The translations under genes were made by a program, and so were the position numbers. The notes under the pieces are model-generated. The model ran no database searches and was not told where the DNA came from. It worked only from the letters and a program-made list of their open reading frames with translations. A stretch of 64,000 bases of DNA from Celeribacter sp. PS-C1 (GTDB taxonomy: Bacteria; Pseudomonadota; Alphaproteobacteria; Rhodobacterales; Rhodobacteraceae), in assembly GCF_019429625.1 (NCBI RefSeq), contig NZ_JAHXRW010000005.1, positions 186,001 to 250,000 of the forward strand, read 5' to 3'. Positions 35,325-63,214 of this stretch are shown here, one piece after another (position 1 is the stretch's first letter; each line of letters begins with the position of its first letter).

Positions 35325-35352
35325 AAAAAACGCGCCCTCAGGCGCGTTTTTT
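35325..35352. terminator. Bidirectional Rho-independent terminator
   Basis: AAAAAACGCGCC pairs with GGCGCGTTTTTT around CTCA. T-tracts run on both strands, so it ends fnrL and the convergent usp gene. Confidence 0.93.
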
Positions 35353-55861: not shown

Positions 55862-55885
55862 GAAGGGCGGCCTGCGCCGCCCTTC
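55862..55885 (+). promoter_or_regulatory. Stem-loop between urtA and urtB
   Basis: GAAGGGCGGC and GCCGCCCTTC form a perfect 10-bp stem with a 4-nt loop, followed by TTCCTCCCTC. It probably acts as a partial terminator or 3' stabiliser, keeping urtA expression above that of the membrane genes. Confidence 0.65.
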
Positions 55886-59883: not shown

Positions 59884-60582
59884 ATGCTTGATGTGAAAAA
59901 CCTCTCTCTCCACTATGGCGGCTCGCAAATCCTTTATGACGTGGACATTTCGGCCGAGGCCGGAAAGGTCACATGTGTCATGGGCACAAACGGCGTTGGC
60001 AAAACTTCATTGCTCAAGGCAATCTCCGGCACCCATCCGCGGTCTGGTGGCTCGATGATGCTCGATGGCGAGGATGTCGGGCGCGCGCCTGCGCATGATC
60101 TGGCCAAGAAAGGCCTCGCGGTGGTGCCGCAGGGGCGGATGATCTTTCCGCTTTTGACCGTGCGGGAGAATCTTGAGAGCGGGTTCACCTGTTTGCCGAA
60201 GTCCGAACATTTCATCCCCGATGAAATCTTCGAGCTGTTTCCGATCCTCAAGGAGTTCATGAACCGGCGCGGCGGCGACCTTTCGGGCGGTCAGCAACAG
60301 CAGTTGGCCATTGCCCGCGCGTTGATCATCAAGCCAAAGCTATTGCTGCTCGATGAGCCGACTGAGGGGATTCAGCCCAATATCATCCAACAAATCGGCC
60401 GCGTGATCTCGCTTTTGCGGGACCGTGGCGACATGGCGATTGTGCTGGTCGAACAGTATTTCGAGTTCGCTTACGACCTTGCCGATAGCCTTGTTTTCAT
60501 GGAGCGGGGGCGTGTGACCTCGACCCACGACAAGGCCGATATTTCTAAGGAAGAGGCCGCTAAAGTCTTCCGTATCGCCTGA
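59884..60582 (+). CDS. urtE: Urea ABC importer ATPase UrtE
   Basis: This 232-residue LivF-like ATPase has Walker A GTNGVGKT, signature LSGGQQQQLAIARA, Walker B LLLLDEPTEGIQPNII and the UrtE feature VEQYFEFAYDLADS. It ends the urtABCDE operon. No urease genes lie within the window. A 44-bp palindrome sits 24 bp downstream. Confidence 0.95.
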   Translation: MLDVKNLSLHYGGSQILYDVDISAEAGKVTCVMGTNGVGKTSLLKAISGTHPRSGGSMMLDGEDVGRAPAHDLAKKGLAVVPQGRMIFPLLTVRENLESGFTCLPKSEHFIPDEIFELFPILKEFMNRRGGDLSGGQQQQLAIARALIIKPKLLLLDEPTEGIQPNIIQQIGRVISLLRDRGDMAIVLVEQYFEFAYDLADSLVFMERGRVTSTHDKADISKEEAAKVFRIA

Positions 60583-60606
60583 AAAATCCCACTCCAATCA
60601 ATGGTT

Positions 60607-60650
60607 TCCATTTTGGCGCTGCAGCAAATTTGCCGCAGCGCCAAAATGGA
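60607..60650. repeat. Near-perfect 44-bp palindrome between urtE and the LacI-family gene
   Basis: TCCATTTTGGCGCTGC (60607-60622) pairs with GCAGCGCCAAAATGGA (60635-60650). The centre holds GCAAATTTGC (60624-60633), itself palindromic; only 60623/60634 (A against C) does not pair. No T-run follows. It may end urtE transcription, protect its 3' end, or bind a dimeric protein. Confidence 0.9.
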
Positions 60651-60671
60651 CTAATTGATAAAAACGCATTG

Positions 60672-60687
60672 CCGAAACCGGTTTCGG
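60672..60687. promoter_or_regulatory. LacI-type operator, 16-bp perfect palindrome
   Basis: CCGAAACCGGTTTCGG has the central CG and the GAAACC/GGTTTC arms typical of LacI/GalR-family sites. It lies 31 bp before the regulator's start, indicating autoregulation of the sugar-uptake operon. Confidence 0.8.
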
Positions 60688-60718: not shown

Positions 60719-61840
60719 GTGAGGTCAGACGTAAAACCGGATCGACGCTCCCGCGACAATGCGCGGGTGACGATTACCGATCTTTCTCAGGCGCTCAGCC
60801 TGACGAAGGGAACGGTCTCCCGTGCTTTGAACGGCTACCCGGATATTTCTGAAACCACCCGCATTCGCGTCATTCGTGCCGCTCAAGCTATGGGCTATCG
60901 CCCGATGAGCCAGGCGCAGGCGATCAAGACCGGGCGCAGCTGTTCTTTGGGTCTTGTGATCGAGCTTTCCGAACATGACGCCCATGCGCCGTTTCTAGCC
61001 GAATTCCTTGCAGGCCTGACCCAAGCCGCTTCCGCTGAGGGTTGGACGCTCACCATCGCGACCTCTGAGAGCGAAGGTGATACCTTGCGGATCATGCGCG
61101 ACCTGATTTTGCACCGCAAAGCCGACGGGTTCATCTTGCCGCGTGTGCTGTGGGACGATCCGCGGATCGCCTTTCTGGATCGCGAAAATGCGCCTTATAT
61201 TTGCTACGGGCGCAGCAAAAATCACGCTGATACTTCTTATTTTGATGCTCTAAGTGAGAAGTCCATGGCCGAGGCCGTGACCTGGTTGGCCCAATTGGGG
61301 CATGAGCGGATTGCTTACATCGGCTCCGCCAGCCATTACGCCTATTCGCATCTGCGCCGCGACGGCTATCGCGCCGGTCTGATACAAGAAGGCTTGGATT
61401 TTGATCCCGCCTTGATGATCGAAGAGGTGCTGGACCCGGAAGAAGCCGCCAAGGCCACGCGTCAGCTGTTGGCGATGGAGCAACCGCCCACCGCAATTCT
61501 CTGCGCCACCGACACTCTGGCGCGCGGGGTTTATGATGTCGCCCATGCGCTGGATCTCAAGATCGGGTCGGATCTGTCGATCATCGGCTATGACGGCTCG
61601 CCCGAGGCGCAGGCGATGTGGCCGCGTCTCGCAACCTTTGCTGTCGACAATCGAAAAGCCGGCGCGGCTTTGGGCGCGATGCTGATGGCGCGGGTGCGCG
61701 ATCTCAACGCGCCGCTTCAACAAGACCTTATTGCCGCAGAATTTCGTCCGGGGGGCTCTACGGGCCGCCCGGACAAGACGTCAGAAGAACTGGCGCACCA
61801 TGTGATCCGCCTGTCGGCCGATACCATTCGTAACGATTAA
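60719..61840 (+). CDS. LacI-family transcriptional regulator of the adjacent sugar importer
   Basis: This 373-residue regulator has the LacI HTH: VTITDLSQALSLTKGTVSRA followed by the hinge NGYPDISETTRIRVIRAAQA and MGYRP. The C-terminal periplasmic-binding-like domain (~75-345) binds a sugar inducer. GTG at 60719 has GGAGG eight bases upstream. The 16-bp operator sits just before it. It is co-directional with the sugar importer genes 24 bp downstream, so it probably controls them; it resembles AglR of the alpha-glucoside systems, but the sugar is not proven. Confidence 0.9.
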   Translation: MRSDVKPDRRSRDNARVTITDLSQALSLTKGTVSRALNGYPDISETTRIRVIRAAQAMGYRPMSQAQAIKTGRSCSLGLVIELSEHDAHAPFLAEFLAGLTQAASAEGWTLTIATSESEGDTLRIMRDLILHRKADGFILPRVLWDDPRIAFLDRENAPYICYGRSKNHADTSYFDALSEKSMAEAVTWLAQLGHERIAYIGSASHYAYSHLRRDGYRAGLIQEGLDFDPALMIEEVLDPEEAAKATRQLLAMEQPPTAILCATDTLARGVYDVAHALDLKIGSDLSIIGYDGSPEAQAMWPRLATFAVDNRKAGAALGAMLMARVRDLNAPLQQDLIAAEFRPGGSTGRPDKTSEELAHHVIRLSADTIRND

Positions 61841-61864
61841 ATGCATCAACTCAGGGAGAGAGCG

Positions 61865-63214
61865 ATGACACTCAAGAAACACATCCTTCTGACAACGGCG
61901 GCGACCGCGCTCGCGTTGACCAGCTTTGCGGCGAGCGCCGACACGTTGCGGTTCTGGACCACCGAGGAACAGCCGGATCGTTTGGCGAAACAAGAAGAGA
62001 TGGCCAAGGCGTTTGAAGAGCAAACTGGCACGGCTGTTGAGGTGATCCCGGTGACCGAGGCCGAGCTTGGCACGCGGGCCACCGCCGCCTTTGCTGCGGG
62101 TGATTTGCCGGATGTGATCTATCACACGTTGCAATATGCGCTGCCTTGGGCTGAGGCGGGGATCCTTGATATGGATGCCGCCACCGATGTGATCGAAGAG
62201 CTGGGTGTCGACACCTTCGCCCCTGGCGCTCTGGGCATGGCGGCGATGGATGATGGCTATGCCTCCGTGCCGGTCGATGGCTGGACCCAGATGATCGTCT
62301 ATCGCAAGGACCTCTTCGACGAGGCAGGTCTTGAGGCACCGACCTCCTATGCCGCTGTCGAAGCCGCACTTGAAAAGCTCCACAACCCGCCGGAAATGTA
62401 TGGCTTCGTTGCCGCGACCAAGGTGGACGAAAACTTTATGTCGCAGGTATTGGAACATGTTTTCCTCGCCAATGGTGTGAGCCCTGTGAACGAGGGCGGT
62501 TTTGCTCCGCTTGATGAAGCGAAAACCACCGAAGTGCTTGATTTCTATAAAGCTATAGCCGAAGCCTCGCCTCCGGGTGATCTCTATTGGGACCAGTCCC
62601 GCACGCTCTACTTCTCTGGCAATGCGGCGATGATCATCTGGTCGCCCTTTATCCTTGATGAGTTGGCCGGTCTACGCGACAGCGCTCCGCCCACGATCAA
62701 CGATGATCCGACCTCCGGCGAACTGGCCTCGAAAACCGGCATTGTGACGACCTTCTCCGGTCCGTCCAACCCGGACGGCGCGGCCTGGGGCGACATCCGC
62801 TATTTCGGCATCACGTCGGATGCGGATACCGACGCTGCAGAGCAATTCGTGATGTATTCCATGGATGAGGGCTATACCCAGACGCTGTCCATCGCACCTG
62901 AGGGCAAGTTCCCGGTGCGTCGTGGCACGGCTGATGATCCTGAGCTGTTCTCAAAGGCATGGGCCGAGCTTCCCGCCGGCGTCGACCGCAAAGCGCCGCT
63001 GGGTGAGCTTTATGCGCAGGACATGATCGACGAGATCGTTGGTGGCCTTGACGTGGCGCAGCGTTGGGGTGTGACCGAAGGTCAACTGACGCTCGCGTCC
63101 AAGATGATCAACTCTCAGGTCATCAACCGCGTGGTGCGCGAATATATCGACGGTGAAATCGACGCGGCCGCTGCCGTGGCCGAGATGAACGCCGAACTGG
63201 GCGCGATCGAATAA
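61865..63214 (+). CDS. Sugar ABC importer, extracellular binding protein (family 1)
   Basis: This 449-residue protein has a signal peptide (LALTSFAASA-DT, ~25). The mature part opens TLRFWTTEEQPDRLAKQEEM, then FAAGDLPDVIYHTLQYALPW, typical of SBP family 1 sugar-binding proteins. ATG at 61865 is supported by GGGAGAG upstream; the ATG at 61841 would add eight residues. It is likely to bind an oligosaccharide. It is the first transport gene after the LacI-type gene. Confidence 0.88.
   Translation: MTLKKHILLTTAATALALTSFAASADTLRFWTTEEQPDRLAKQEEMAKAFEEQTGTAVEVIPVTEAELGTRATAAFAAGDLPDVIYHTLQYALPWAEAGILDMDAATDVIEELGVDTFAPGALGMAAMDDGYASVPVDGWTQMIVYRKDLFDEAGLEAPTSYAAVEAALEKLHNPPEMYGFVAATKVDENFMSQVLEHVFLANGVSPVNEGGFAPLDEAKTTEVLDFYKAIAEASPPGDLYWDQSRTLYFSGNAAMIIWSPFILDELAGLRDSAPPTINDDPTSGELASKTGIVTTFSGPSNPDGAAWGDIRYFGITSDADTDAAEQFVMYSMDEGYTQTLSIAPEGKFPVRRGTADDPELFSKAWAELPAGVDRKAPLGELYAQDMIDEIVGGLDVAQRWGVTEGQLTLASKMINSQVINRVVREYIDGEIDAAAAVAEMNAELGAIE

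Follow-up and report, generated by a model that had tools for sequence, protein, structure and literature searches.

A palindrome between the urt and agl operons of Celeribacter sp. PS-C1 as a probable pair of inverted PhaR-type boxes

The 44-bp palindrome that separates the urtABCDE operon from a sugar operon in Celeribacter sp. PS-C1 is probably a head-to-head pair of PhaR-type boxes located just upstream of the aglR-aglE promoter and its operator, a reading to which we assign a probability of about 0.57 on the basis of sequence. Each arm would make up one box, TTTGGC-GCT-GCAGCA on the left and its mirror on the right. The palindrome is best described as a putative variant that would work like a PhaR operator and not as a proven member of that class, because the arms in the window (the whole stretch of 64,000 nucleotides analysed here) fail the exact core of the R. 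sphaeroides site. The features of this region are listed in Table 1.

Table 1. Positions of the palindrome, its boxes and the neighbouring features in the window
Feature	Position	Strand	Remarks
urtE, last gene of urtABCDE	59884..60582	+	TIGR03410
Outer stem, 5' side ATCAAT	60597..60602	+	RNA fold; 5 of 6 pairs invariant in 8 loci
Near-perfect palindrome	60607..60650	.	44 bp; 21 of 22 pairs; longest stem of the window; unique
Left PhaR-type box TTTGGC-GCT-GCAGCA	60612..60626	+	1 mismatch to TTYTGCRNYGCRGCA; matrix 9.3 over 60608-60630
Right PhaR-type box TTTGGC-GCT-GCGGCA	60631..60645	-	matrix 5.9 over 60627-60649
Outer stem, 3' side ATTGAT	60654..60659	+	RNA fold; pairing across 8 loci
Presumed -35 TTGCCG, overlapped by operator	60669..60674	+	inferred from conservation
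Operator CCGAAACCGGTTTCGG of the LacI-type regulator	60672..60687	.	starts 22 positions after the last base of the palindrome
LacI-type regulator, here aglR (inferred label)	60719..61840	+	PF00356 and sugar-binding domains
Sugar ABC transporter binding protein, here aglE (inferred label)	61841..63214	+	PF01547

The gene order is urtABCDE, palindrome, operator, LacI-type regulator and sugar-binding protein, where UrtA-E were assigned by TIGR03407-03411 and the palindrome begins 24 nt past the urtE stop. The first-pass annotation had placed the palindrome between the urt operon and a LacI-controlled sugar operon, and this placement agrees with the profile matches and with the positions of the two flanking genes. 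The nearest solved structures to the aglE product are sugar-binding proteins, and the regulator is 95% and 93% identical to those of C. naphthalenivorans EaN35-2 and Celeribacter sp. HF31, the nearest named records in a comparison from which the own genome was perhaps excluded. The names aglR and aglE are presumptive because neither protein matched an NCBIfam equivalog at cut-off and the operator departs from the AglR consensus in print, nnntcAAAGCGCTTTgannn (accessible text of PMC4052901). Together with its preceding TTG, this operator was found in 22 of the 198 family genomes, and all 22 loci carry both a regulator match and an aglE match. A sigma-70 consensus scan found no promoter, and a terminator scan flagged the operator itself, in a region with 2 found against 1.4 expected. 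The palindrome was also considered as a second site of the LacI-type regulator and this was rejected; it bears no likeness to the operator downstream, as had been observed at first pass. Elsewhere in the urt operon, a hairpin of 10 bp, with CTGC in the loop and TTCCTCCC after it, is located between urtA and urtB (55862-55885), where it perhaps sets the ratio of binding-protein to permease mRNA.

The two arms of the palindrome (60607-60628 and 60629-60650) are 95% complementary with 0 nt between them, and the nested palindrome at the centre, GCAAATTTGC, occupies 60624-60633, so that the coordinates and pairing described earlier were reproduced. The perfect stem of 16 bp (12-nt apical part) is the longest within the window, where eight dinucleotide shuffles of the window gave a maximum of 11 bp. 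The RNA fold of 60583-60680 was calculated at -38.7 kcal/mol (z = -7.37) for the + strand and -45.8 kcal/mol (z = -6.46) for the - strand, and the + strand fold gains an outer stem, ATCAAT with ATTGAT, which was absent from the earlier annotation. A reading of ATCAA...TTGAT as an FnrL-type site, whose motif we take to be similar, was discarded since the halves are about 50 bp apart. The first pass had also suggested that the arm might be a dispersed repeat. A 151-base query with the palindrome against the own genome (3.87 Mb) recovered no sequence other than the query and its reverse arm, and the two exact genome matches of the arm word CCATTTTGGCGCTGC are the two arms; among the matches listed, 25 further places differ by one or two mismatches, a number close to the control. 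A REP/MITE-like repeat is thus not supported, there being no further copy in the own genome. No Rfam family reached its gathering score, and the five matches (E up to 1) were to microRNA families and scored far below the respective cut-offs.

PhaR sites have been described as CTGCNNNGCAG in R. sphaeroides and as YGCRNYGCR with AT-rich arms in S. meliloti (accessible text of PMC12542648), and as NGCN3GC[GA]N3 in B. diazoefficiens (accessible text of PMC10888616). The phaR gene (PF07879) is present in 19 of the 20 Celeribacter genomes, including the own genome (G000), where it scores 98.6 bits. The phasin gene beside phaR is preceded by two boxes, 28-30 bp apart, in all 18 aligned Celeribacter loci; these boxes come from 18 of 22 rows, as four (L087, L106, L107 and L108) gave no alignment to the own phasin and were omitted. 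All 36 spacers of the phasin boxes were observed to be RNY. The box type of the palindrome is found twice before the own phasin gene too, as TTCTGC-GCC-GCAGCA and TTCTGC-ACT-GCGGCA. A matrix was built solely from these 36 phasin boxes and is therefore independent of the palindrome.

When the whole 64 kb are scored with this matrix, the left arm comes fourth, behind three unrelated places, and the right arm ninth, with a score short of the 99.99% quantile (6.46). The distance between the box centres is 19 bp, and they precede the operator by about 34 and 53 bp. Nine of the 12 loci in which urtE adjoins aglR (L003-L011) have their two best intergenic sites exactly 19 bp apart, with a maximum of 19.7 in L011 and a weak right arm of 0.4 in L008. 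In the intergenic stretch of the other three, L012 has no box (best -3.7) and L013 and L014 reach 2.7 and 2.4. The own genome holds 60 places within one mismatch of TTYTGCRNYGCRGCA (a complete set of 62 rows, reduced to places by eye), and just two pairs of these lie less than 50 bp apart, one in the phasin promoter and the other in the palindrome. The palindrome pair counts for less because its second arm is not independent of the first. At two mismatches, for which the listing is partial, TTYTGCRNYGCRGCA is hardly enriched in the own genome (610 against 515 in the control). As for the published sites, the exact R. sphaeroides core was not found in the arms of the window (TGGC-GCT-GCAG and TGGC-GCT-GCGG), which each miss 2 of its 8 fixed bases; it is present in L009, L010, L011 (left arm), L021 and L043. 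Against the S. meliloti pattern, the arms (GGC-GCT-GCA and GGC-GCT-GCG) miss the first Y alone.

The conservation of the element was examined in the 20 Celeribacter genomes by a nucleotide search, where a gene is taken as lacking if none was found at that sensitivity. The genes urtE and aglR adjoin in 12 genomes (L003-L014) and lie 19 kb apart in one (G007; L015 and L021), while urtE alone occurs in four (L016-L019), aglR alone in one (G018, L020) and neither in two. All 12 urt-agl loci were aligned, and a second alignment was made of eight of them, with L008, L012, L013 and L014 dropped after inspection for poor boxes or alignment. In the eight-locus alignment, the central part of the palindrome shows the invariant pattern GC...GCAG.A....TGC.GC...GC, which corresponds to two inverted boxes, each with a GC-RNY-GC core. 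Invariant columns make up 17 of 24 in the box halves, none of six in the spacers, none of four in the middle and 4 of 10 in the outer stem, although the eight loci are related and invariance is not independent per locus. All 16 three-base spacers are purine-N-pyrimidine, and all three spacer pairs are kept in only four of the eight loci. The contrast between box halves and spacers cannot come from pairing alone because both sit in the same stem. Of the 21 columns 3' of the palindrome, 16 do not vary, as a promoter region would show. Furthermore, the urt-agl loci with the 19-bp box pair include some that are only 77-82% identical over the flanking kilobase. The palindrome is conserved in related loci; the first pass had named a lack of conservation, together with no effect on transcript ends or protein binding, as what would refute its inference, and the first half of this does not apply. 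Among the roles proposed there (3' transcript protection, a cruciform or a double protein-binding site), the last is the best supported, by the invariant columns, the RNY spacers and the likeness to the boxes before the phasin gene.

Where a box occurs, it goes with aglR: boxes precede aglR without urt, and the four loci with urtE alone all score below -9 by the phasin matrix. As an example, L021 carries a box of 16.1, and in other genera boxes before aglR without urt score 16.8 (L043, Litoreibacter), 14.9 (L170), 11.8 (L046) and 10.9 (L065), all four located 21-32 bp from the operator. L020 has no good box at the expected place and 7.9 elsewhere in its stretch, and urtE without adjoining aglR in L015 scores 4.5. 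Scores of at least 10 occur in 4 of 58 aglR promoters and in 3 of 732 background windows; the aglR promoter of the window scores 9.3. The 58 distinct aglR loci include that of the window and were defined by a regulator match of at least 38% identity with an operator within 260 bp; operator places without a locus were added as exact matches only (19 stretches), with 1-mismatch ones left out. Most other genera are without a box, as 53 of the 58 promoters score below 8. The ten best sites excluding the window's own (down to 3.4) were all observed no more than 52 bp from the operator, in a stretch of 200 bp. An element tied to urt alone was dropped, since boxes are present before the regulator without urt. 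In L021, where another gene precedes aglR, a T-run stem and a single box form separate features. About 20 bases past the urtE stop of the same genome, with aglR 19 kb away, lies a box-like palindrome, CTTCTGCGTCGCAG (L015), and its aglR retains TTTTCTGCGACGCAGCA (L021); these two are a possible trace of a split between urt and agl.

The alternative that survives best, though we consider it rather unlikely, is an RNA hairpin which ends the urt transcript, either as a 3'-protecting stem or as a terminator with a poor U-tract that is perhaps helped by Rho, the likeness to the boxes being incidental or secondary. The strength of the + strand fold and its position soon after the urtE stop agree with this, and no other strong stem is found between urtE and the operator. 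Two relatives in which urtE has a different neighbour (L016 and L018) carry an ordinary stem with a TTTT run at the corresponding place. Across the eight loci, 89.9% of cells are paired with a covariation score of 0.231, and none of 500 shuffles and no slid version reached the observed values for paired cells, for doubly changed cells or for covariation. Both sides change in 8 of the 25 pairs, four of which lie outside the boxes. With 12 loci, 80.6% are paired with 10 doubly changed pairs, and none of 500 shuffles beat the covariation score. By pairing and covariation score, the hairpin part of the first-pass inference may hold, yet two of the five measures were unremarkable: shuffles reached the number of doubly changed pairs in 91 of 500 cases (8 loci) and 28 of 500 (12 loci), and the number of pair types in 147 and 51 of 500 respectively. 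Related sequences can also beat all shuffles in such a covariation test without structure, and the consensus energy for 12 loci is weak (-6.26, to which covariation contributes -0.17).

The letters that follow and make up the stem argue further against a hairpin as the main function. No U-tract is present: CTAATTGA follows the stem with 3 T in 8 bases, in line with the lack of a T-run recorded earlier, and the terminator scan omits the palindrome. The spacers are fully paired in half of the eight loci and vary in every column, yet the box letters of the same stem are fixed, and boxes precede the regulator also where urt is missing. A 12-bp stem at 35325-35352 of the window, AAAAAACGCGCC with a CTCA loop followed by TATTTTCT, is an ordinary terminator, which indicates that U-tract terminators are in use in this genome.

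The pairing of the hairpin seems partly kept for its own sake, since the covariation outside the boxes is not accounted for by the boxes alone, and the element may thus have an additional function where the urt transcript ends. An improbable extension is a dual use, where the DNA would hold PhaR on two boxes to tune agl sugar uptake to the PHB store and the RNA, or PhaR as a roadblock, would end or trim the urt transcript. If true, the PHB state would set carbon import and couple or insulate nitrogen import via a single element, with protein site and hairpin in the same letters but separable by mutation.

Also improbable is a double site of another regulator with a similar TGC-N3-GCA preference. 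The evidence for PhaR comes from letters and not from protein, and the arms carry GGC against TGC in the phasin boxes; however, this box type was found beside phaR at all aligned phasin loci, and the RNY rule is shared. Template switching is a mechanism by which a sequence can be copied in inverted orientation, and a single box copied in this way, with a second arm of no present function, would account for the joint changes in the arms and for the single boxes in L021 and other genera, but this is very improbable given the two sites at exactly 19 bp in nine of 12 loci, some of them diverged over the flanking kilobase as described above.

Under the preferred reading of two inverted PhaR-type boxes, the LacI-type regulator would act as a repressor at the operator that overlaps the -35 region, and PhaR, bound farther upstream, would convey the PHB state of the cell as an additional signal. 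As granules form, PhaR would be drawn onto them and off the DNA, and sugar uptake would shift with carbon storage. PHB granules titrate PhaR (accessible text of PMC12542648), and in Ralstonia eutropha PhaR is a repressor of one phasin gene and an activator of another (PMC12849132). PhaR binding at the palindrome, the sign of its effect and the promoter itself are inferred here, and the position upstream of the -35 suits activation at least as well as repression. If true, the sensor of carbon storage would control a sugar importer in marine Rhodobacteraceae. In an S. meliloti phaR mutant, the levels of several sugar ABC transporter proteins decrease (accessible text of PMC12542648); the main text of that paper, as far as it is accessible, does not contain the terms agl or glucoside. 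A term search of the accessible main text of PMC5343134 and PMC4344238 gave no PhaR, and our literature search on PhaR together with AglR, alpha-glucosides, Rhodobacteraceae or Celeribacter found no published report of a link between PhaR and agl sugar uptake.

Other PhaR-type boxes were also observed in the own genome. An exact pattern match (matrix 11.0) lies between diverging genes for crotonyl-CoA carboxylase/reductase and a methylmalonyl-CoA-mutase-like protein, and strong boxes precede genes for an HpcH/HpaI lyase (24.0), biotin carboxylase (23.5) and a DEAD helicase (22.4), and a further box of 15.8 is located close to the start of a YjbH-like gene. Their places include G000:C2:96127 and C2:108962 (crotonyl-CoA carboxylase/reductase and HpcH/HpaI lyase) and C12:216332 and C36:141178 (biotin carboxylase and YjbH-like). 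To judge from these matches, PhaR possibly controls genes of ethylmalonyl-CoA metabolism as a regulon. The genes of carbon metabolism among them would fit a PHB regulon, and the helicase and several other strong matches are without an evident link.

In comparison with known systems, the palindrome resembles 3'-end hairpins and intrinsic terminators as a strong stem with covarying pairs soon after a stop codon, but differs from them in having no U-tract, invariant box letters in the stem and a position directly upstream of the promoter of another operon. It shares its intergenic stretch with an operator of the kind bound by AglR, a LacI-family protein (accessible text of PMC4052901), 22 positions downstream; the palindrome is unlike both this local operator and the printed consensus, from which the local operator itself departs. 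Unlike the PhaR (AniA) sites of phasin promoters, the two copies are inverted, 19 bp and not 28-30 bp apart as in Celeribacter phasin promoters, and form a near-perfect palindrome with a strong stem; the arms have GGC at the place of TGC in the phasin boxes, and the target is a sugar operon. With those same PhaR sites, the palindrome shares the GC-RNY-GC core, the outer AT-rich flank, the presence of two copies near a promoter and a phaR gene in the genome.
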